Positions 7,227 through 52,240 of a stretch of 64,000 bases of DNA are shown here, piece after piece. How positions within the stretch are numbered: position 1 is the stretch's first letter; each line of letters starts with the position of its first letter. A program made the translations under genes and the position numbers. The notes under the pieces were generated by a model. It was not told where the DNA came from. It did not search any database and was given only the letters and a program-made list of their open reading frames with translations. The stretch lies in the NCBI GenBank assembly GCA_017887445.1, contig JAGHIA010000070.1, positions 1 to 64,000 on the forward strand, given 5' to 3'. This DNA is from Fusicatenibacter sp. GTDB lineage: Bacteria; Bacillota; Clostridia; Lachnospirales; Lachnospiraceae.

Positions 7227-8837
7227 ATGGCAGTAAAGTATGTTTTTGTAACCGGCGGAGTGGTTTCCGGTCTCGGCAAGGGGATCACCGCAGCGTCGCT
7301 GGGCCGCCTTCTGAAGGCCAGAGGCTACAAGGTCACGATGCAGAAATTCGACCCGTACATCAACGTGGATCCGGGAACCATGAACCCCATCCAGCACGGG
7401 GAGGTATTCGTCACCGACGACGGTACGGAGACGGATCTGGACCTTGGCCACTACGAGCGTTTCATCGACGAGAGCCTTGACCGGAATTCCAACGTGACCA
7501 CGGGTAAGGTATACTGGTCAGTGCTGCAGAAAGAGCGCCATGGGGACTTTGGCGGCGGCACCGTTCAGGTGATCCCTCATATCACCAATGAGATCAAGAG
7601 CCGCTTTTACCACAACGAGGAGGAGGACCGCATCGCCATCATCGAGGTAGGAGGCACCGTCGGCGATATTGAAAGCCAGCCGTTTCTTGAGGCCATCCGC
7701 CAGTTTCAGCATGAGGTGGGCCACGAAAACGCGGTGCTTGTCCATGTTACGCTGATTCCCTATCTGAAAGCCTCCGGAGAGATGAAGACCAAACCTACCC
7801 AGGCCAGCGTCAAGGAGCTGCAGGGTCTCGGTCTGTGGCCGGATGTGATCGTCTGCCGTTCCGAACATCCGCTGACCCAGGAGATCCGGGACAAGATCGC
7901 CCTGTTCTGCAATGTGCCAAGCACTCACGTTCTCCAGAATCTGGATGTGGACTATCTGTATGAGGCTCCACTGGCCATGGAGCGGGAGCGTCTGGCGCAG
8001 GTGGTCTGCGAATCCTTGCATCTTCCCTGTCCCGAACCAGATCTGTCCGACTGGCAGACCATGGTACAGGCGCTGCGTACCCCGGACAAGGAGGTGACCA
8101 TCGCTCTGGTGGGAAAATACATTCAGCTGCACGACGCTTACCTGAGCGTGGCCGAGGCGCTGAAGCACGGAGGAATCGCCGTGCGGGCCAGCGTTTCCAT
8201 CCGCTGGGTGGATTCCGAGACGGTGACCAAGGACAATGTGGCCGATGTTCTGGCGGGCGTGGACGGCGTGCTGGTTCCCGGCGGTTTCGGCAGCCGCGGC
8301 GTGGAAGGGAAGATCACAGCCATCCGCTATGCCCGGGAGCATCAGCTTCCCTTCCTTGGCCTGTGCCTGGGCATGCAGCTGGCCATCGTGGAGTACGCCC
8401 GCCATGTGGCCGGCTGTCCCGGCGCCCACAGCATCGAGCTGGACCCGGAGACGAACTATCCGGTGATTTCTCTGATGCCGGACCAGAACGGCGTGGAGGA
8501 TATCGGCGGGACCCTGCGGCTGGGCGCGTATCCCTGCGTGCTGAAGGAAGATTCCCTGGCCTTCCGGCTTTACGGCGCAAAACAGATCCAGGAACGGCAC
8601 AGACACCGCTACGAAGTCAACAACGAATACCGCGAGACGCTCACCAGCCACGGCATGAAGCTTTCCGGCCTTTCCCCGGACGGCAGGATCGTGGAGATGA
8701 TCGAGCTGGAAGACCATCCGTTCTTTGTGGCGACCCAGGCCCATCCGGAGTTCAAGTCCCGGCCCAACCGCCCCCACCCACTGTTCCGCGGACTGATCCA
8801 GGCGGCGGCAGAGCATCATAGAAAAGCAGGAGAGTGA
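7227..8837 (+). CDS. pyrG: CTP synthase
   Basis: [26 protein letters not shown]; GATase motif [12 protein letters not shown]. Confidence 0.97.
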
Positions 8838-9019
8838 TCTGCGGGAAACGGATATTCCCTGTCCCGGAGTATGTTTGAACCTTCAATCTGTAAGCCTGGT
8901 TTACGGGAACGCAGAAAAGAATTTTCAAACATATTCCGGGGATGCAGCACAAAAAATGCGGCGCAAAGCCGGATTTTATCCAAAAAATCCCAGAAAAAAT
9001 AAAAAAACTTAAATTTGTT

Positions 9020-9048
9020 ATTTACAAATCCAAAGTTTTGGTTTATAT
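9020..9048 (+). promoter_or_regulatory. promoter for gltB
   Basis: TTTACA - 17 nt - TATATT. Confidence 0.55.
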
Positions 9049-9148
9049 TATAACCCATAGTTGCAGATAACCGCAGCTATTTGGCTGTCTGAATAGCTGC
9101 AAAGTACCTGCGGCAGTTTGCATTTTGAAAAACAGAAAGGGTGTTTGT

Positions 9149-12100
9149 ATGACACAGAGGAGAGAGGGCGCCGGATCTAGCAGTCCCGCGCTGTACAGTC
9201 CCCGGTTCGAGCACGATAACTGCGGAATCGGAGCTGTCGTTAATATCAAAGGCAGAAAAAGCCATGAAACGGTTGAAAAAGCACTGAAAATTGTAGAAAA
9301 CCTGGAACACAGGGCCGGCAAGGACGCCGAGGGAAAAACGGGTGACGGAGTAGGAATCCTATTGCAGATTTCGCATAAATTCTTCTCTAGAGCCTGTCGT
9401 TCCCTCGGCATTTTTTTAGGGCAGGAACGGGAATACGGCATCGGAATGTTCTTCTTCCCCCAGAACGAACTGAAGCGCAACCAGGCGAAAAAGATGTTCG
9501 AGATCATCGTGGAGAAGGAAGGCATGGAGTTTCTCGGCTGGCGCCAGGTTCCGGTGGTTCCCGAGGTTCTGGGCCACAAGGCGAGAGAGTGTATGCCCTG
9601 CATCATGCAGGCGTTCATCAAAAAGCCAGAGGACGTAAAGAGCGGCATCGACTTCGACCGCAAGCTGTATGTGGTGCGCCGTGTGTTTGAGCAGAGTACC
9701 GACAATACCTATGTGCCGTCCCTGTCCAGCCGTACCATCGTCTACAAGGGTATGTTCCTGGTGGGACAGCTGCGGACCTTCTTCTCGGACCTGCAGGATA
9801 CCGCCTACGAGTCGGCCATCGCCATCGTACACTCCCGGTTCAGCACAAACACGAACCCCAGCTGGGAGAGGGCCCATCCCAACCGCTTTATCGTACATAA
9901 CGGCGAAATCAACACCATCCGCGGCAACGCGGACAAAATGCTGGCCAGAGAGGAGACCATGGCCTCACCGATGCTGCAGGATGAGCTGCACAAGGTACTT
10001 CCGGTCATCAATACCCAGGGGTCCGATTCGGCGATGCTGGACAATACCCTGGAATTTCTCACCATGAGCGGTATGGACCTGCCGCTGGCGGTGATGATCA
10101 CCATCCCGGAACCATGGGCCAACAACATGACCATCTCCCAGGAGAAGAGAGACTTCTATCAGTATTACGCAACCATGATGGAGCCGTGGGACGGCCCCGC
10201 GTCCATCCTGTTTTCCGACGGCGACGTGATGGGAGCGGTGCTGGACCGCAACGGCCTGCGTCCTTCCCGCTATTACATCACCAGAGACGATCAGCTGATT
10301 CTGTCCTCCGAGGTGGGCGTGCTGGAGATCCCTGAGGACCAGATCCTTGTGAAAGAACGTCTCCATCCGGGAAAAATGCTTCTGGTGGACACGGTGCAAG
10401 GAAAAGTCATCAACGACGACGAGCTGAAAGAGATCTACGCCCAGCGCCAGCCTTACGGCGAGTGGCTGGACAGCAACCTGGTGGAACTGAAAAACCTGAA
10501 GATCCCCAACCTGCCGGTGCAGGAGTACAGCCGCACAGAGCGGGTGAGACTGCAGAAGGCCTTCGGCTATTCCTACGAGGAGTACCGCACCTCCATCCGC
10601 AACATGGCGCTGAACGGCTCCGAAGGCATCGCTTCCATGGGTGTGGACACTCCGCTGGCGGTGCTGTCCCATCAGCATCAGCCGCTGTTCAATTATTTCA
10701 AACAGCTGTTCGCCCAGGTCACCAATCCGCCCATCGACGCCATCCGTGAGGAGATCGTAACCTCTACCACCGTCTATGTGGGCCGGGACGGAAACCTGCT
10801 GGAAGAACGTCCGGTCAACTGCCAGGTACTGAAGATCAACAATCCGATCCTGACAAACACGGATATGCTGAAGATCAAAAACATGAAGATCGACGGTTTT
10901 AAGGTACTTACCGTGCCGATCACTTATTATAAAAGCACGCCGCTGGAGCGTGCCATGGACCGCCTGTTTGTGGAGGTGGACCGGGCGCACCGGGAAGGCG
11001 CAAACATCCTGGTGCTTTCCGACCGGGGCGTGGATGAGAACCATGTGGCGATCCCGTCGCTGCTGGCAGTCTCCGCCGTTCACCAGCATCTGGTGAAGAC
11101 GAAAAAACGTACCTCCCTGGCCATCATCCTGGAGTCCGGCGAACCCCGCGAGGTCCATCACTTCGCCACCCTGCTGGGTTACGGCGCCTGCGCGGTGAAC
11201 CCGTATCTTGCCCTGGACACCATCCATGAGCTGATCCAGGACAAAATGCTGGAAAAAGATTACTACGCGGCGGTGGAAGACTACAACCACGCGGTGATCT
11301 CCGGTATCGTGAAGATCGCCTCCAAAATGGGTATTTCCACCATTCAGTCCTACCAGGGTTCCCAGATCTTCGAGGCCATCGGAATCTCCCCGGAGGTGAT
11401 CGACAAATACTTTACCGGCACGGTCAGCCGGGTAGGAGGCATCACCCTGCAGGATCTGGCGGAGGACGTGGACGCCCGTCATTCTCAGGCGTTCGATCCG
11501 CTGGGACTGGACACAGACCTGACTTTGGACAGCATCGGACGCCACAAAGAGCGCAGCCAGGGTGAAGAACACCGGTACAACCCGCAGACCATCCATGCGC
11601 TGCAGAAATCCACCCGCGACGGCGATTATCAGATGTTCAAGACCTATACCTCCATGGTGGACCGGGAGGAAACCGGATATCTGCGCAGTCTGATGGACTT
11701 CAATTATCCGGAACAGCCGATTTCCATCGACGAGGTGGAGAGCGTGGATTCCATCGTCCGACGCTTTAAGACCGGCGCCATGTCCTACGGATCCATTTCC
11801 CAGGAGGCCCACGAGACGTTGGCTATCGCCATGAATATGCTCCACGGAAAATCCAACTCCGGAGAGGGCGGCGAAAGCGACGAGCGTCTGGATTCTCCCG
11901 AGCGGTGCTCGGCCATCAAGCAGGTGGCATCGGGACGTTTCGGCGTAACAAGCAAGTATCTGGTCAGCGCGAAAGAGATCCAGATCAAAATGGCTCAGGG
12001 CGCGAAGCCTGGCGAGGGCGGCCATCTGCCGGCAGGAAAGGTTTACCCGTGGATTGCCAAGACCCGTCATTCCACACCGGGCGTTTCCCTGATCTCCCCG

Positions 12101-13681
12101 CCGCCGCACCACGATATTTATTCCATCGAGGATCTGGCGCAGCTGATCTACGACCTGAAAAACTCCAACCGGGACGCGAGAATCTCCGTCAAGCTGGTGG
12201 CTGAGGCAGGAGTGGGAACCGTTGCCGCCGGCGTGGCAAAAGCGGGCGCTCAGGTCATCCTGATCTCCGGATACGACGGAGGCACCGGCGCGGCTCCGAG
12301 AAGCTCCATCCACAACGCGGGACTTCCCTGGGAGCTGGGACTTGCGGAGACGCACCAGACCCTGATCATGAACGGCCTGCGCAACCGTGTGGTCATCGAG
12401 ACGGACGGCAAGCTGATGAGCGGCCGCGACGTGGCCATCGCAGCGCTTCTGGGCGCGGAGGAATTCGGCTTCGCCACAGCTCCCCTGGTAACCATGGGAT
12501 GCGTGATGATGCGTGTCTGCAACCTGGATACCTGCCCGGTGGGCGTGGCCACCCAGAATCCGGAGCTTCGCAAACGTTTCCGCGGAAAACCGGAATATGT
12601 TGTAAACTTTATGCGCTTTATCGCGCAGGAACTGAGAGAATATATGGCGAAGCTGGGCGTTCGCACCGTGGATGAGATGGTGGGACGTTCCGACCTTCTG
12701 AAACGGAAGGACGACGCCAAAGGCTCCTTTGCTTCACGGGTGGACCTTGGCGCGATCCTCAACAATCCTTACGCGGGCAATGAGAATGTGACCTTCGATC
12801 CAAAAGCAGTCTATGATTTCCAGCTGGAGCAGACTCTGGACGAAAAAGTGTTCTTAAAACAACTGAAACTGACGGAAGGCGAGTCGAAAACGCTTCAGGT
12901 ACAGGTCACCAACACAGACCGTACTCTTGGCACCATCCTCGGCTCGGAGATTACGAAAAAATTCAAAGATACGCTCCGTCCGGACACTTATGTGATAGAA
13001 TGTAAGGGAAGCGGCGGACAGAGTTTCGGCGCGTTTATCCCCAAAGGACTGACCCTTCGTCTGGAGGGCGACTCCAACGATTACTTCGGCAAGGGACTGT
13101 CCGGCGGAAAGCTTGTGGTCTATCCGCCGAAGAACAGCAACTACCGTCCGGAGGAAAATATCATCATCGGCAACGTGGCCCTTTACGGCGCCACCAGCGG
13201 TGAAGCATACATCAACGGAATGGCCGGCGAACGTTTCTGCGTCCGCAACTCCGGAGCCACCGCGGTGGTAGAGGGCGTTGGCGAGCACGGCTGCGAATAT
13301 ATGACCGGCGGAAGAGTGGTGGTCCTTGGAAGCACAGGCAAGAACTTTGCCGCAGGTATGAGCGGCGGCATCGCCTATGTGCTGGACGAGAAAAATCTCC
13401 TCTACCGCAACCTGAACAAGGCAATGATCTCCATCGAGGCGGTGGACAGCAAGTACGACATTGCCGAACTGCGCTCCCTGATCCAGCGCCATGTGGACCA
13501 CACAGGCTCCGCCAAGGGCAGCCATATCCTGGAGCATTTTGAGGAATTTTTACCGAAATTCAAGAAGATCATCCCCAACGACTACAAACGGATGATGACG
13601 CTCAGCGCGAAGCTGGAAGAAAAGGGACTGGACAGCGAGCAGGCTCAGATCGAGGCATTCTACGAGAGCCTGCGCAGATAG
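9149..13681 (+). CDS. gltB: glutamate synthase large subunit
   Basis: FEHDNCGIGAVVNIKG, GEINTIRGN, FMN/Fe-S region, C-terminal GXGXG domain. Confidence 0.97.
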   Translation: MTQRREGAGSSSPALYSPRFEHDNCGIGAVVNIKGRKSHETVEKALKIVENLEHRAGKDAEGKTGDGVGILLQISHKFFSRACRSLGIFLGQEREYGIGMFFFPQNELKRNQAKKMFEIIVEKEGMEFLGWRQVPVVPEVLGHKARECMPCIMQAFIKKPEDVKSGIDFDRKLYVVRRVFEQSTDNTYVPSLSSRTIVYKGMFLVGQLRTFFSDLQDTAYESAIAIVHSRFSTNTNPSWERAHPNRFIVHNGEINTIRGNADKMLAREETMASPMLQDELHKVLPVINTQGSDSAMLDNTLEFLTMSGMDLPLAVMITIPEPWANNMTISQEKRDFYQYYATMMEPWDGPASILFSDGDVMGAVLDRNGLRPSRYYITRDDQLILSSEVGVLEIPEDQILVKERLHPGKMLLVDTVQGKVINDDELKEIYAQRQPYGEWLDSNLVELKNLKIPNLPVQEYSRTERVRLQKAFGYSYEEYRTSIRNMALNGSEGIASMGVDTPLAVLSHQHQPLFNYFKQLFAQVTNPPIDAIREEIVTSTTVYVGRDGNLLEERPVNCQVLKINNPILTNTDMLKIKNMKIDGFKVLTVPITYYKSTPLERAMDRLFVEVDRAHREGANILVLSDRGVDENHVAIPSLLAVSAVHQHLVKTKKRTSLAIILESGEPREVHHFATLLGYGACAVNPYLALDTIHELIQDKMLEKDYYAAVEDYNHAVISGIVKIASKMGISTIQSYQGSQIFEAIGISPEVIDKYFTGTVSRVGGITLQDLAEDVDARHSQAFDPLGLDTDLTLDSIGRHKERSQGEEHRYNPQTIHALQKSTRDGDYQMFKTYTSMVDREETGYLRSLMDFNYPEQPISIDEVESVDSIVRRFKTGAMSYGSISQEAHETLAIAMNMLHGKSNSGEGGESDERLDSPERCSAIKQVASGRFGVTSKYLVSAKEIQIKMAQGAKPGEGGHLPAGKVYPWIAKTRHSTPGVSLISPPPHHDIYSIEDLAQLIYDLKNSNRDARISVKLVAEAGVGTVAAGVAKAGAQVILISGYDGGTGAAPRSSIHNAGLPWELGLAETHQTLIMNGLRNRVVIETDGKLMSGRDVAIAALLGAEEFGFATAPLVTMGCVMMRVCNLDTCPVGVATQNPELRKRFRGKPEYVVNFMRFIAQELREYMAKLGVRTVDEMVGRSDLLKRKDDAKGSFASRVDLGAILNNPYAGNENVTFDPKAVYDFQLEQTLDEKVFLKQLKLTEGESKTLQVQVTNTDRTLGTILGSEITKKFKDTLRPDTYVIECKGSGGQSFGAFIPKGLTLRLEGDSNDYFGKGLSGGKLVVYPPKNSNYRPEENIIIGNVALYGATSGEAYINGMAGERFCVRNSGATAVVEGVGEHGCEYMTGGRVVVLGSTGKNFAAGMSGGIAYVLDEKNLLYRNLNKAMISIEAVDSKYDIAELRSLIQRHVDHTGSAKGSHILEHFEEFLPKFKKIIPNDYKRMMTLSAKLEEKGLDSEQAQIEAFYESLRR

Positions 13682-39668: not shown

Positions 39669-39760
39669 AAGCATACGCAGTAACAGCGCGTTGCAGAACG
39701 GTCACACGTTTCGCGATGCACAGAAACTGCATTTACATATCACAGGGGAGGAGCGCCTTT

Positions 39761-42295
39761 ATGGCAAACGCAACGAAAAACAAATCTGCCGCTCAGAAAT
39801 CGACAGCAGCAAAAAAGACAACGGCAAAAAAATCCGCGGCAAAAACCACTGCAAAAAAGAAAAGCAACTCCACAGGAAAAAAACGGGGACGTCCGGCGAA
39901 ACAGAAGCAGCCGGAGGGCATCCGTCTGGAGATTGTTCTGCTGTCTGTGATGGCTGTCGCGATCCTGCTGATGCTGAGCAACTTTGGGATAGGAGGAATT
40001 GTGGGAAACGCTGTCAGCGATTTCTTCTTCGGACTGTTCGGCATCTCCGCATGGTTCTTTCCCATTCTTCTTTTTGCCGTCACAGCCTTTTATATCGCAA
40101 ATAAAAACAACCCGATGGTGATCCGGAAACTGTCCGGCTGCATCGCGTGCTTTCTTCTGTTCTGCGCGTTTATGCAGCTTCTGACCTCCGGCTACAGCGA
40201 AACCACGCGCATTCTGGATTATTACAGCGACAGCGTCTATGACCACCTGGGCGGCGGACTGTTCGGAGGGATCCTGGTAAAGCTCTTTGGTCTCGCGTTC
40301 GGCAAGATCGGCGCATACGTCATCGTTGTGATCGGCATCATCATTTCCGCGATCATCATGACGCAGAAACCATTTTTCAACATCCTCCACGAGGGCGGCA
40401 GCCGCGCCTGGAAGACTGCCAGAGAGCAGCGGCGTCAGTCGGTCCGCCAGGCAGAGAGAGTACACAAGCAGCGCGCGTCCCGGGCGGCGGAAAGCGGATC
40501 CGCGGACGGAGACGGTGGGGCCGCGGCTTCTTCCAAAGAGGCTGCGCCGAAAAAGAAGCGGTTTTTCTTTGATTTTAACCTGAAGGAAGAAGAAAAGACT
40601 CACCAGATGGCAATGCCGGAGCTTTCCATCCACCGGGCAGACACCCCGGAACCAGAGACAGAACATCCGGAGACGCCGGCGCCGGAGACAAATCCGGAAA
40701 CACCTCCGGCGCCGGAAGGCTCCCACGGGAAGAAGCTTGCCAACCCCAAGTCATCGCCAAAAGAGATCCAGGAAAATGTTTCCCATATCCGCCGGGAGAT
40801 CGGCGAGCGGCCGGCGCCGGCGAAGACCGCCTACAAGTTCCCGCCGCTGTCCCTGCTGAAAAAGGGGGACCGGAAAGCCTCCGGCGATTCGGACGCTCAT
40901 CTGCGGGAGACGGCCCAGAAGTTAGAGCAGACACTGCGCAATTTCGGCGTAAATGTATCCGTGACAAACGTCAGCTGCGGACCTACCGTTACCAGATATG
41001 AGCTGCAGCCAGAGCAGGGCGTGAAGGTCAGCAAGATCGTCAGTCTCACCGACGATATCAAGCTGAATCTGGCCGCCGCCGATATCCGTATCGAGGCTCC
41101 GATCCCAGGCAAGTCTGCCGTGGGCATCGAGGTGCCAAACGCCACCAACACGCCGGTCATGCTCCGGGATCTGCTGGAGTCCGCCGCGTTTAAAAAACAT
41201 CCGTCCAATCTGGCCTTCGCGGTAGGAAAGGACATTGCAGGGCAGCCGGTGATCACCGATATCGCCAAAATGCCTCACCTGCTCATCGCAGGCGCTACCG
41301 GCTCGGGAAAATCCGTCTGCATTAACACACTGATCATGAGTATTCTCTATAAGGCAAACCCGGAAGACGTACGGCTGATCATGATCGACCCGAAGGTTGT
41401 GGAGCTTTCCGTATATAACGGAATCCCCCATCTCTTTATCCCGGTGGTCACAGATCCGAAAAAAGCGTCCGGCGCTCTGAACTGGGCGGTTTCCGAGATG
41501 GAAGACCGGTATAAGCGGTTTGCCGAATACAACGTCCGCGATATCCGCGGATACAACGAACTGGCTGCCCAGGGACTTGTGGCCTCCGAGGAGGGTGTTC
41601 CGGCGAAGATGCCCCAGATCGTCATTATCGTCGACGAGCTTGCGGATCTGATGATGGTGGCTCCCGGGGAAGTGGAGGACGCCATCTGCCGTCTGGCCCA
41701 GCTGGCCCGCGCGGCAGGCATCCACCTGATCATCGCCACCCAGCGGCCGTCGGTCAACGTTATCACAGGACTGATCAAAGCGAACATGCCGTCCCGTATC
41801 GCTTTTTCCGTGTCCTCCGGTGTGGACAGCCGCACCATTCTGGACATGAACGGGGCGGAAAAGCTCCTAGGCAAAGGCGATATGCTCTTCAAGCCGCAGG
41901 ATTACCAGAAGCCTGCCCGCCTGCAGGGGTCCTTTGTATCCGACAAAGAAGTTTCCGATGTTGTGGAATTCCTGAAAGAGCATTTCGGGGAAGCCGCTTA
42001 TAATCCGGAGATGGAAGAGAAGATCAACAATTCCGTCACAGAGGCTCCTGCCGCGGCCGGCGGAAACGACGAGAGGGACGCTTACTTCGCGGACGCCGGA
42101 AAATTTATCATAGAGAAAGACAAGGCATCCATCGGAATGCTGCAGAGAGTCTTTAAGATCGGTTTTAACCGGGCGGCCCGCATAATGGACCAGCTGTGCG
42201 AGGCCGGCGTCGTCGGAGAGGAAGAGGGCACCAAGCCGAGAAAGATCCTCATGACCATGGAACAGTTTGAACAGTATCTGCAAACGCTGTCTTAA
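39761..42295 (+). CDS. ftsK: DNA translocase FtsK/SpoIIIE
   Basis: GATGSGKSVCINTLI, N-terminal TM segments, C-terminal gamma domain; Lys/Ala-rich N-terminal tail. Confidence 0.95.
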   Translation: MANATKNKSAAQKSTAAKKTTAKKSAAKTTAKKKSNSTGKKRGRPAKQKQPEGIRLEIVLLSVMAVAILLMLSNFGIGGIVGNAVSDFFFGLFGISAWFFPILLFAVTAFYIANKNNPMVIRKLSGCIACFLLFCAFMQLLTSGYSETTRILDYYSDSVYDHLGGGLFGGILVKLFGLAFGKIGAYVIVVIGIIISAIIMTQKPFFNILHEGGSRAWKTAREQRRQSVRQAERVHKQRASRAAESGSADGDGGAAASSKEAAPKKKRFFFDFNLKEEEKTHQMAMPELSIHRADTPEPETEHPETPAPETNPETPPAPEGSHGKKLANPKSSPKEIQENVSHIRREIGERPAPAKTAYKFPPLSLLKKGDRKASGDSDAHLRETAQKLEQTLRNFGVNVSVTNVSCGPTVTRYELQPEQGVKVSKIVSLTDDIKLNLAAADIRIEAPIPGKSAVGIEVPNATNTPVMLRDLLESAAFKKHPSNLAFAVGKDIAGQPVITDIAKMPHLLIAGATGSGKSVCINTLIMSILYKANPEDVRLIMIDPKVVELSVYNGIPHLFIPVVTDPKKASGALNWAVSEMEDRYKRFAEYNVRDIRGYNELAAQGLVASEEGVPAKMPQIVIIVDELADLMMVAPGEVEDAICRLAQLARAAGIHLIIATQRPSVNVITGLIKANMPSRIAFSVSSGVDSRTILDMNGAEKLLGKGDMLFKPQDYQKPARLQGSFVSDKEVSDVVEFLKEHFGEAAYNPEMEEKINNSVTEAPAAAGGNDERDAYFADAGKFIIEKDKASIGMLQRVFKIGFNRAARIMDQLCEAGVVGEEEGTKPRKILMTMEQFEQYLQTLS

Positions 42296-47401: not shown

Positions 47402-48289
47402 ATGCGAACACTGGAGTATCATGCCGTTCCAGAGGACGAGGGCGTGCGTCTGGGGCTGATCCTGGAACGCCGGCTGGATCTGTCCGAGCGCCAGATCCGG
47501 CAGCTGAAATATCTTCCCCAGGGCATCACAGTCAATGGGGTCCGGCAGCGGATCGATCATACGGTTCACTGCATGGATATGATCCGGGTGTCGTTTTCTG
47601 ATCAGAAAAGAAAATCCGGCGGTTTGCTGCCGCTGAAAAAAGCTCTTTGCATCCTATACGAGGATATGGACCTTCTGATCGTCGACAAGCCGGCAGGAGA
47701 GGTCTGTCACCCTGCCCATGGCCATTACCAGGACACACTGGCGAATCAGGCAGCCGCATACCTGCAAGAGCAGGAGCGTGAGCCGTCTCTGGTACGCTGT
47801 GTCGGCCGTCTGGACAAGGATACGTCCGGCGTCCTGCTGTTTGCTAAAAATCGCCTGGCTGCCGGGCGTCTGGCCGAACAGAAGGAAGCGGGAATCTTTT
47901 ACAAAGAATATCTGGCTTTGACCCAGGGCGTATTTCCGCCCAAGGAGCGTACTGGTGAAATCCGCCTGCCCCTGGCCCCGGTAGAAGGCAGCCTGATGAA
48001 AATGCAGGTGTCTCCGCAGGGGAAGGAAGCGATAACTCATTACGAAGTTCTCTGCTGCGACAGGCATTGTTCTCTGGTGCTGTGCCGCATCCGGACAGGA
48101 CGCACCCACCAGATCCGCGTTCACATGGCCGCAGCCGGACATCCGCTTCTGGGAGACCCTTTGTACGGAAACGACAGGTATATTACGTCCTCGCGCACAG
48201 CGCTTCACGCCTGGAAACTGCACCTTCGCCAGCCGGTGACAGGAGAGCAGCTGACGGTGGAAAGCTTTCGACAGTATATGTTTTGCTGA
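47402..48289 (+). CDS. RluA/RluD family pseudouridine synthase
   Basis: VGRLDKDTSGVLLFAKN; RTGRTHQIRVHMAAAGHPLLGDPLYG. Confidence 0.93.
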   Translation: MRTLEYHAVPEDEGVRLGLILERRLDLSERQIRQLKYLPQGITVNGVRQRIDHTVHCMDMIRVSFSDQKRKSGGLLPLKKALCILYEDMDLLIVDKPAGEVCHPAHGHYQDTLANQAAAYLQEQEREPSLVRCVGRLDKDTSGVLLFAKNRLAAGRLAEQKEAGIFYKEYLALTQGVFPPKERTGEIRLPLAPVEGSLMKMQVSPQGKEAITHYEVLCCDRHCSLVLCRIRTGRTHQIRVHMAAAGHPLLGDPLYGNDRYITSSRTALHAWKLHLRQPVTGEQLTVESFRQYMFC

Positions 48290-48412
48290 TTTTATGCTGA
48301 TACATCGTTGACCAGATCGAAAGCCGGCCCCGCAGATGGAGTCTGAAACCTTTCACGATTTTAGAATCCATGAACTCACATGAAAATCATACAGATGACT
48401 GGAAATTCGGAA

Positions 48413-48982
48413 ATGACTATTGTATATTTTGTAAGACACGCAGAACCTGATTATAATAATCACGACGACAGGAAAAGAGAACTGACGGCCAAAGGCATGA
48501 AGGACAGGGAATTAGTATCAAGGTATTTGTCTGATAAAAATGTGGACGTAATACTGTCCAGTCCATACAAACGATCTGTTGACACCGTTGGGCATTTTGC
48601 AGACATCAAACACTATCCCGTCGAAATCATCGAAGACTTTAGGGAAAGGAAAACGGACAGCGTCTGGATTGAAGATTTTACAGCCTTTTCCAAAAAGCAG
48701 TGGAGTGATTTTTCTTACAAACGTTCCGACGGGGAGTCTCTGTCGGAGGTGCAGGCGAGAAACATAAATGCTTTGCGTACAGTTCTTGAAAAATATAAAG
48801 ACAAAACGGTTGTTGTGGGCAGTCACGGCACTGCTCTCAGCACGATCATAAACTACTTCGACAGCTCTTTTGGATATGATGAATTTACGGAAATCAAATC
48901 GCTGATGCCGTGGATTGTCAAGTTCGTTTTTTGCGGCGGTGAATTGCAGAGTATAGAAGCGATCAATGTGTTTGAAAAATAG
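48413..48982 (+). CDS. histidine phosphatase family protein
   Basis: MTIVYFVRHAEPDYNNHDDRKRELTAKG; VVGSHGTALS. Confidence 0.88.
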   Translation: MTIVYFVRHAEPDYNNHDDRKRELTAKGMKDRELVSRYLSDKNVDVILSSPYKRSVDTVGHFADIKHYPVEIIEDFRERKTDSVWIEDFTAFSKKQWSDFSYKRSDGESLSEVQARNINALRTVLEKYKDKTVVVGSHGTALSTIINYFDSSFGYDEFTEIKSLMPWIVKFVFCGGELQSIEAINVFEK

Positions 48983-48987
48983 AAGAG

Positions 48988-49032
48988 TGCATCATAAGTT
49001 TACATAACGCTATTATGTAAACTTATGATGCA
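48988..49032. repeat. perfect palindrome TGCATCATAAGTTTACATAA-CGCTA-TTATGTAAACTTATGATGCA
   Basis: 20-bp perfect arms, 5-nt centre, lacks a T-tract; between convergent genes and next to a tyrosine recombinase. Confidence 0.95.
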
Positions 49033-49125
49033 GCAGGTAATCAAGGCGGATAAGTCTCTCAAAATAACTTCCCGCCCATTTCACTGTTAAGTACAGAGTA
49101 CAAGTTGTTCGTACCTGTCTTGTGA

Positions 49126-50190
49126 CTATTCTTCCCGCAACTTCACCGCAGTCGCCGCTTTCCGCCGTCTGGCGTCATCAATAGCGGCATAATGCTTTTT
49201 CGTCGTGTTTACGTCCTTGTGGCCCAGCACATCGGCTACCAGATAGATATCCCCGGTTTCCTGATACAGAGTCGTGCCGTAAGTGCTTCGCAGCTTGTGA
49301 GGAGTAATCTTTTTTGTCGTCGTCACCTGTGAAGCATATTTTTTCACAAGATTCTCCACCGTTTTTACATTGATGCGTTTCCTCTGAGAAGAGTAGAACA
49401 GCGCGTGCTCATGGCCTGACACCGGCTCCATGGATTCCCGAACCTCCAGGTAACGGCGCAGAGCCTTTTCTACCTCGGCACCGAAATAAACGATCATTTC
49501 ATTTCCGCCTTTTCGGACAACCTTAATGCCGTTATTCTTAAAATCCACATCTTCAATATCCAGACCTACACATTCCGAGACGCGAATCCCCGTGCCGAGC
49601 AGGAGAGTAATGATCGCAAGATCCCGGTCCTTGGTTTTCTCATAATATGCTTTCTGATGAGGAGTCAGTCCCTCCCCGCAGCTCTCAACAAAATCCAGAA
49701 GCCTTGCCACTTCATCCGGGTCCAAACGGATGATTTCCTTTTCGTGTAGCTTCGGCATGTCTACCAGCAGCGTGGGATTGGTCTGGATCATTTCCTTTTT
49801 GTAAAAATACGCGTAAAAGGTACGCAGGCTGGAAAGCTTTCGTTTCAGGCCTTTTTCTCCGTTTGTCGTATATTCATCCCTGGAATCCTTATACGCCTTC
49901 AGGTATTCAATGTATTCCTCAATATCCAGGGCGGTCACAGAGTCCAGAACATCCAGCTTCAGGTCGTCCACAGAGCATTTCTGAAACGCCGGATTTTCCG
50001 ACAGCAGAAACTGAAAGAAAATCCGCAGATCATAAGCATACTTGATCCGCGTACTGGTAGAAGTGGTTGTGCTGACTGCACGGAAAAAATCATTGGCAAA
50101 CTCGGGAAGTGATTTTAAAACTTCGCGGAGTTTCAGAGTATTTTCCATATCGGTTTGTTCGTGGTATGTAATTTTAGCGTTTTTTCCCAT
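49126..50190 (-). CDS. tyrosine-type site-specific recombinase (Xer-like)
   Basis: GTGIRVSECVGLDI, TPHKLRSTYGTTLYQ, VLGHKDVNTTKKHY catalytic boxes. Confidence 0.93.
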   Translation of the reverse strand: MGKNAKITYHEQTDMENTLKLREVLKSLPEFANDFFRAVSTTTSTSTRIKYAYDLRIFFQFLLSENPAFQKCSVDDLKLDVLDSVTALDIEEYIEYLKAYKDSRDEYTTNGEKGLKRKLSSLRTFYAYFYKKEMIQTNPTLLVDMPKLHEKEIIRLDPDEVARLLDFVESCGEGLTPHQKAYYEKTKDRDLAIITLLLGTGIRVSECVGLDIEDVDFKNNGIKVVRKGGNEMIVYFGAEVEKALRRYLEVRESMEPVSGHEHALFYSSQRKRINVKTVENLVKKYASQVTTTKKITPHKLRSTYGTTLYQETGDIYLVADVLGHKDVNTTKKHYAAIDDARRRKAATAVKLREE

Positions 50191-50819
50191 AAGCAGCTCC
50201 TTTGCGCGTTGGCTTGAAAAGATACAGAATAAAATTTATCCGGACAAAACGCGCCGCCCGGATTTATAATCTGGAAATTTCCGCATCATAAACTGCCGGG
50301 CGCGCAATAAATATCTGAATGATAATAATGAACTAAAATCTGATACAACAGAAAAGAGCGGCAAACAAATTCCAATCAATGCGGCCGTTGAAAAATGAAA
50401 CGTATAATAATTACCGCAGATCTGCAAATCTATGAAATCGAAGATTTCAACGGCTTAAGCAGCAAAAAGTGTGGAGACAAAGGCTATTTCAACTATTCGG
50501 AAAACACAGGTTTTTCGAATAGTTGACCGTGAATCCAGACCAATACCGCTTGTCATCATCCGTTTTTTTATCTCCGGATTCTTTATTTTTTACGATAAAT
50601 AATTCCTATTTAAAATTTCTAAAGTCTAATTCTAAAATCTGTTTGCTTTTTCAAATAATCTTTTTGATTTTTGCCCTTCCGTCATAGGACAAAATCCCGT
50701 CCGCATGTAAAAATCGAAACCGCCAAGAGCGGGGGGCGGGATTATCCGCGCGTCTGCAGACGTCACATTGTCAATAAAAACGTACCGCCAATGACATGTT
50801 TCCTCGCCATTTCTGTTTT

Positions 50820-51497
50820 TCAGCTCATAAACCTGAGTACGCCGATCACTTTTCCAAGGATCTGCAAATCCCCCTGAACAATGATCGGTTCCATATAATC
50901 GTTTTCCGGCTGCAATCGGCAAAAACCATCTTCCCTGTAAAAAGTCTTTACAGTGGCCGAATCGTCCAACAGCGCGACCACCATATCGCCGTTCCCTGCA
51001 GTTTCCTGTTGTTCCACAAGAACATAGTCTCCATTCAAAATTCCTGCGTTTATCATGCTTTCTCCCTGAACCTTCAGCAAAAACGTCTCCGCGTTGGGAA
51101 GACGGTCCAGCGGCATGGGAAAATAACCGTCGATATGCTCCACGGCCAGCAGCGGTTCCCCCGCGGCTACCTTGCCGACCAGCGGAACCTGCACAATATA
51201 GGGTTCCGACGCGGTATCGTCCTCCGCAACCTTCTGGATGCCCTGAATCGCGTCCAGACGTCCGGTATGAAAATCCTTGTCGCAGATTTCGATGGCCCGC
51301 GGTTTCGTCGCATCGCGTTTGATATAGCCTTTTTTCTCCAGCGCTTCCAGATGCGCATGAACCGACGATGTGGATTTCAAATGTACGGCCTCGCAGATTT
51401 CACGGACCGACGGCGGGAACCCGCGAGTCAGGATCTCGTCTTTTAGATATGATAATATTTCTTCCTGTTTCTTGCTTAATGTATGATGATCTGCCAT
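50820..51497 (-). CDS. lexA: LexA repressor
   Basis: [71 protein letters not shown]. Confidence 0.97.
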
Positions 51498-51675
51498 ATT
51501 TTTATCCTCCGAATTTATTCCTTCTGCCGTCCGTTCCGGTTAAACTGTATGGACGGATACTGTGACACCCCAACTGGCTGAGCTGTCACGTAATCTCCTA
51601 AAATATTCCTGTAAAAAACGCATAGATATTTTATTTATTATAACATAGGGAAAAAGCAAAGGCAAACATATTTTC

Positions 51676-51751
51676 CGAAAATTTGTTCGGTTTTTCTGTT
51701 GACAAACGTTTGTTCTGGTACTATAATAGCCTCATAAAGAACAAATGTTCT
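51676..51751. promoter_or_regulatory. SOS operator region with three candidate LexA boxes and a TTGACA-N17-TATAAT promoter
   Basis: CGAAAATTTGTTCG (51676..51689), CAAACGTTTGTTCT (51703..51716), AGAACAAATGTTCT (51738..51751). Confidence 0.85.
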
Positions 51752-51868
51752 GAACAGACATTCGAACAAAGACAATAACTTTTACGCCTCTTCCGGCCGA
51801 ACAGTCAAAGACAGCAACTGCGCAAAACATTAACGGCCCGTACAGGCAGATGAAAAGGGAGGTACCAT

Positions 51869-52240
51869 ATGAAAAAGAATCAGAAAACCCCACGACACTC
51901 TTCCACTGCCAGACGCAGATGCCGCCAGCAGAAAAAATATACTGCTCTCCTGCTGCTCCTTCTCCTTCTCGGTATTCCCGGCGCCATACTTCTCTCGAAC
52001 CATGTACAGGCGCAGGCCGAAGGACTTCCGCAGGAACAGACCTATAAATATTACACCAGCATCAAGGTAACATACGGCGACACCCTCTGGGAAATCGCAG
52101 AAAAATACCAGACAGATGAATACGAAGATATCCCAAGCTATATCGAAGAGGTGAAACAGATCAATCACCTTACTTCCAGCCAGATAACCGACGGCATGTA
52201 CCTGTGTATTCCCTATTACACATCCGAGTACAAAGCCTGA
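51869..52240 (+). CDS. yneA: YneA-like SOS cell-division suppressor (TM + LysM)
   Basis: polybasic N-terminus, single TM, KVTYGDTLWEIAEKYQ LysM-like domain; divergent from lexA. Confidence 0.85.
   Translation: MKKNQKTPRHSSTARRRCRQQKKYTALLLLLLLLGIPGAILLSNHVQAQAEGLPQEQTYKYYTSIKVTYGDTLWEIAEKYQTDEYEDIPSYIEEVKQINHLTSSQITDGMYLCIPYYTSEYKA

Follow-up and report, generated by a model that had tools for sequence, protein, structure and literature searches.

The window, which is the whole 64,000-nucleotide stretch of Fusicatenibacter sp. DNA analyzed here, carries a palindrome (site A), a gene for a single tyrosine recombinase, a second palindrome (site B), and a gene for an FtsK/SpoIIIE translocase (Table 1). 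The GC skew of the window turned from slightly positive to negative between 48 and 52 kb, where the genes also converge, and thus the locus was assigned to the replication terminus, as an earlier note on this DNA had expected from the gene orientation at the palindrome. The recombinase gene, which is followed by lexA, ends 93 bp from site A, against a previous estimate of about 94 bp. The best-matching family of its product was XerS (NF003462), with a score of 214.6 bits; because this score is under the curated cut-off of 267, the protein was filed as XerS-like and not as XerS. The reading of the neighbor as an XerS-type single recombinase was upheld. Of 61 relatives spread over the order Lachnospirales, 56 have an orthologue, almost always as a single copy.

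Table 1. Features at and near the replication terminus in the window
Feature	Position	Strand	Basis
FtsK/SpoIIIE translocase	39716..42295	+	Pfam FtsK_SpoIIIE, FtsK_alpha, FtsK_gamma, FtsK_4TM
Replication terminus: GC-skew switch and gene convergence	48001..52000	.	Window skew, gene strands; skew flips at B in relatives
Site A, extended species-specific arms	48988..49032	.	Perfect arms, 1 genomic copy
Site A conserved 27-bp core, AGTTTACATAA-N5-TTATGTAAACT, two inverted XerD-type half-sites	48997..49023	.	Spacing, clustering, XerD co-occurrence
XerS-like single tyrosine recombinase, 354 aa	49126..50190	-	Best family XerS NF003462; catalytic lysine and other active-site residues present
Site B, 34-bp 14-6-14 palindrome AACTATTCGGAAAACACAGGTTTTTCGAATAGTT	50491..50524	.	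Proposed dif of XerS-like recombinase; conserved upstream of gene

Direct reading of the window confirmed that site A (TGCATCATAAGTTTACATAA-CGCTA-TTATGTAAACTTATGATGCA) is a perfect 45-bp palindrome, with 20-bp arms fully matched around a CGCTA loop. Site A is real, far beyond chance, and single-copy in its own genome (G000): about 4e-5 such palindromes were computed to be expected by chance per genome, and one copy was found in the 3.88-Mb, 192-contig assembly. Both arms contain TTATGTAAACT, the XerD-side half-site of Bacillus subtilis dif, and the resemblance of the arms to XerD half-sites was upheld. This sequence occurs three times genome-wide, namely in the two arms of site A and once in an apparent coding sequence; the third copy was ruled out as a canonical dif, since it lies in apparent coding sequence and has no partner half-site. 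The outer 9 bp beyond the core vary by species and are complementary in other species as well. The earlier statement that the palindrome has no T-tract was correct for the plus strand, but on the minus strand CTCTTCTATT comes after the hairpin, a weak tail that a loose scan scored as terminator-like.

The motif was then defined across the genomes. The consensus of site A, RGTTtACATAA-N5-TTATGTaAACY, is a strict 11-5-11 inverted repeat in which two XerD-type half-sites lie head to head. With up to three mismatches, the core AGTTTACATAA-N5-TTATGTAAACT was matched in 24 of 145 genomes at one to three copies each; overall, carrier genomes hold one to four copies, and a genome-wide repeat was thereby ruled out. 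At the 80 loci sampled around the recombinase gene, 51 matches with up to five mismatches were obtained, against 4 for the reversed pattern. The inner hexamers formed 29 pairs at a spacing of exactly 5 bp and three pairs at 6 bp, with no more than one pair at each other spacing from 0 to 20, while the everted, direct, and reversed hexamer controls gave 0-2 pairs each. Each half has one variable position (TTATGTNAA), and the same position also varies among the XerD half-sites of dif, which read TTATGTAAACT in B. subtilis and TTATGTTAAAT in Escherichia coli. The half-site in Frankia is TTATGTCAAGT (PMC3025954). A recurrent variant, in which one half is TTATGGTAA in place of TTATGTAAA, was seen in six genomes (G052, G132, G141, G034, G031, and G056), all of which encode canonical XerD. 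The exact core was detected in 1 of 397 further genomes sampled throughout the phylum, and site A is nearly absent outside Lachnospirales. The sole exact core outside the order (G340:C33:52763, L322) lies about 640 bp from an XerC/D-like recombinase gene.

Site B, about 1.5 kb from site A, lies upstream of the recombinase gene and has the near-symmetric layout AACTATTCGnnAAA-N6-TTTnnCGAATAGTT. Among the 80 Lachnospiraceae loci, 78 had enough upstream sequence, and a matrix match to site B was found within 1.5 kb upstream of 70 of these 78 genes, with a median of 120 bp between site and gene start. The loci scanned were also those from which the matrix was derived, and the best background score was -1.1 against a threshold of 14. 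Two of the eight remaining loci have site B further upstream. When up to three mismatches were allowed, site B was present in 78 of the 145 genomes, mostly as one copy. Three chromosomes assembled as one contig each reverse both their GC skew and the strand bias of their genes no more than a few kb from site B (at 3.28 Mb in G076, about 0.40 Mb in G125, and 2.28 Mb in G057). In G030, 28 kb separate site B from the recombinase gene, and the skew flips at site B (+0.19 to -0.20) and not at the gene. A conserved, usually single-copy inverted repeat beside an XerS-type gene and at the skew switch has the properties of a dif, and these sequence patterns make site B a candidate that is very probably the dif of the XerS-like system. 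The FtsK protein encoded in the window, which has the gamma domain, is the presumed activator of recombination at site B.

Several further B-like sites were observed. Genome G053 has five of them on three contigs (L324 745 and 1005, L325 3537 and 3666, and L326 7625), including two pairs 130-260 bp apart, in stretches read without a recombinase gene; they are possibly hairpins of mobile elements or terminators. Second perfect copies of site B occur in G106 (C51, L328 9692) and G048 (C2, L329 4802), again in stretches read without a recombinase gene. In G009 (C2, L323), two XerS-like genes at 8207-9250 and 12025-13101 are 3.8 kb apart, encode proteins 54% and 62% identical to the window recombinase, and have one site B and two copies of site A nearby.

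The location of site A was compared with that of site B. Among 24 exact A cores in 18 genomes, 17 shared a contig with site B or the recombinase gene and were within 50 kb of it (binomial p <1e-16 against the 3-5% expected, the genomes being related), and many matches with up to three mismatches likewise share the contig of site B within tens of kb. In the 6.93-Mb single contig of G076, just two exact cores were found, 8.1 kb and 14 kb to either side of site B, and copies also flank site B in G002, G004, L129, and L154. The other 7 of the 24 exact cores are on contigs without site B or the recombinase gene. Since A sites stand on contigs with no link to site B (G081, G025, G012, G123, G093, and G007) and the local skew at the G081 site runs from minus to plus, unlike a terminus, not every site A was placed at the terminus. 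Site A is apparently an undescribed kind of symmetric site that Lachnospirales keep mainly near the terminus.

The earlier note had regarded the palindrome as a dif or other active recombination site of the adjacent recombinase. Its location at the terminus, its distance of 93 bp from the gene, and its near-perfect symmetry, which suits a single recombinase, are in line with this proposal. However, the partner conserved with the gene is site B, whose half-sites (AACTATTCGnnAAA) are unrelated, and site B marks the skew flip even when the gene is 28 kb distant. Conservation of the palindrome beside the gene was not borne out in relatives, where site A can be on either side of the gene, upstream or downstream, with no constant distance or copy number; this variation also ruled out a regulatory part of the recombinase gene. 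Site A follows XerD instead. The expectation of one copy per chromosome held in G000 but not in several relatives, which have two to four copies, often flanking site B, and recombination between copies on both sides of site B, as in G002, G004, and G076, would delete or invert dif. The strict 5-bp center is also shorter than the 6-11 bp of known dif centers. That site A serves its neighbor in recombination is consequently regarded as scarcely credible, and site B is favored instead. Binding of site A by the XerS-like protein is unlikely because its gene is near-universal and site A is not, and because the half-sites of site B are unrelated.

A second reading is that site A is an intrinsic, often bidirectional, terminator or an mRNA 3'-end hairpin, which the genomes would have in common through descent or coincidence. 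Of 49 copies, 46 are intergenic, although a simple gene caller marked 88% of the sequence as coding, and convergent gaps hold 20 of 43 sites, an over-representation that would suit terminators; however, 14 sites are in tandem and 9 in divergent gaps, and these orientations make a general terminator unlikely. At 13 of the 49 sites, that of the window included, the palindrome extends by at least four more pairs into a long hairpin, compared with 2 of 245 offset controls, and the outer arms are species-specific yet self-complementary. Four sites (L103:5992, L116:11074, L130:3384, and L143:7031) have grown into long near-perfect palindromes, and those of L116 and L130, with flanking A/T tracts, look like bidirectional terminators. 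The weak tail on the minus strand of the window also agrees with termination, while many sites are unextended. On the other hand, a terminator would work without 22 bp of fixed sequence and a 5-bp spacing, and there would be no reason for it to be limited to one to four copies, most of them close to dif, or to follow XerD. Termination as the explanation of site A was accordingly considered improbable, and the extended arms may reflect secondary terminator use or palindrome growth by template switching.

The occurrence of site A was next examined against that of XerD. A canonical XerD, defined by a TIGR02225 score above about 290 bits, is encoded in 69 of the 145 genomes, including G000 (C47:6140-7000, L093; 330.9 bits). 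The exact core was present in 16 of 69 genomes with XerD and in 2 of 76 without (Fisher p=2e-4), and with one genome per genus in 13 of 61 and 2 of 71, respectively (p=0.0016), this correction for kinship being at the genus level only and most genomes being drafts. When one mismatch was allowed, the counts were 34 of 69 and 12 of 76 (p=1.6e-5), whereas the reversed control pattern was not associated with XerD (p=0.57). The two genomes having the exact core without XerD are 74% and 90% complete, and about half of the genomes with XerD have no recognizable site A. Together with the XerD-type half-sites, the co-occurrence suggests that XerD probably binds site A.

In the 145 genomes, no XerC was found above the cut-off, and the TIGR02224 matches coincided with the XerD genes. 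K172 of XerD is the catalytic lysine. In alignment with E. coli XerD, all 26 XerDs of the count, which leaves out four XerD loci, have another residue at this position, mostly D or E, and the loss was noted at L093 and L183-L209; the hairpin of the K172 region is one residue shorter in these proteins, and R148, H244, R247, H270, and Y279 are retained in all 26. To our knowledge, other Firmicute XerDs retain K172, and the XerS-like protein of the window retains its catalytic lysine. Since it has neither a recognizable XerC partner nor the catalytic lysine, the XerD of Lachnospirales has probably ceased to resolve dimers, as judged from these sequences.

The protein bound to site A could be a terminus protein other than XerD, such as a fork-barrier protein or a MatP-like organizer. 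A few symmetric, intergenic, terminus-clustered sites do resemble matS or Ter-type systems, but each half of site A matches the XerD half-site of dif down to the variable position, site A co-occurs with XerD, and a symmetric site alone cannot confer polarity on a fork barrier; another protein is therefore possible but rather unlikely. Xer-dependent mobile elements (IMEX) insert at dif-like sites, and site A might also be a relic or attachment site of such elements or a decayed old dif. The XerD-type half-sites near the terminus and the pairs of sites 48-100 bp apart that sometimes occur would fit this origin. A relic, however, would stay an asymmetric XerC/XerD site with a 6-bp center and decay, whereas site A is symmetric, 5-spaced, and recurrent across many genera, and a detailed reading of the G009 region that carries A sites showed no evident mobile element. 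Such an origin is thus very unlikely.

The XerD-type half-sites, the clustering at the terminus, the co-occurrence with XerD, and the 5-bp center led us to read site A as a mark at which XerD does not recombine; recombination between copies on either side of dif would be destructive, which points the same way. In B. subtilis, XerD at terminus sites (XDS) unloads SMC (Karaboja et al. 2021, cited by PMC10945525 and PMC12322038). Site A resembles these in that several copies are concentrated around the terminus and that XerD is encoded in G000 and in 16 of the 18 genomes with the exact core. A division of labor may be proposed, in which the XerS-like recombinase, presumably activated by FtsK, would resolve chromosome dimers at site B, and a partnerless XerD would keep a DNA site at the terminus, where an XerD dimer would sit on the two facing half-sites of site A over the 5-bp center without recombination. 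By analogy with B. subtilis, XerD bound to site A would unload arriving SMC complexes in an XDS-like manner, and SMC unloading appears the most likely function of the site. We give an even chance to this combined reading, in which site A is a non-recombining terminus mark of XerD, most likely for SMC unloading, and site B serves the XerS-like recombinase as its dif. More tentatively, and with some doubt, XerD may have lost its partner, its dif, and its lysine and become a dedicated SMC-unloading marker of the terminus at the new site A, while resolution passed to the XerS-like protein at the new site B.

Outside subscription papers, no description of site A, site B, or any Lachnospirales dif was found in the literature, and the novelty is provisional because subscription papers were outside the search. 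Lachnospirales are a major order of gut bacteria whose dif and recombinase have been missing, and site B with the XerS-like gene is a strong candidate for this pair. XerD survives here without a recognizable partner or catalytic lysine, alongside a terminus-clustered site, which offers an evolutionary test of whether the role of XerD at the terminus is independent of recombination; if the proposal is true, the two jobs of XerD have been separated naturally.

Among known systems, the XerCD/dif of Firmicutes (CodV/RipX and Bsdif in B. subtilis) shares with site A the half-site TTATGTAAACT, its XerD-side arm, but site A has no XerC-side arm, a 5-bp and not a 6-bp center, and several copies, and XerC was not found above the cut-off. 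In enterobacteria, MatP at matS acts on MukBEF and limits this SMC-type complex at the terminus; like matS, site A is palindromic, terminus-restricted, and multi-copy, but its sequence is unrelated and its copies are fewer. The XDS of B. subtilis are likewise terminus-clustered in a Gram-positive lineage, and here XerD-type half-sites and an XerD gene are present; site A, a putative XerD site, differs in that it is a strict symmetric 11-5-11 repeat of few copies and that the XerD here has no recognizable XerC and no catalytic lysine. For site B, the closest counterpart is XerS/difSL of streptococci and lactococci, in which a single recombinase similar to the XerS-like protein of about 354 aa acts at a site near its gene at the terminus (PMC5357621). 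The half-sites of site B have a CGAAAA core in common with the left arm of difSL (TTTCCGAAAA). However, difSL is 31 bp with an 11-bp center and unequal arms (PMC5357621), whereas site B is a near-symmetric 34-bp 14-6-14 site with a 6-bp center, its recombinase scores under the XerS cut-off, and in Lachnospirales the XerS-like recombinase coexists with XerD.
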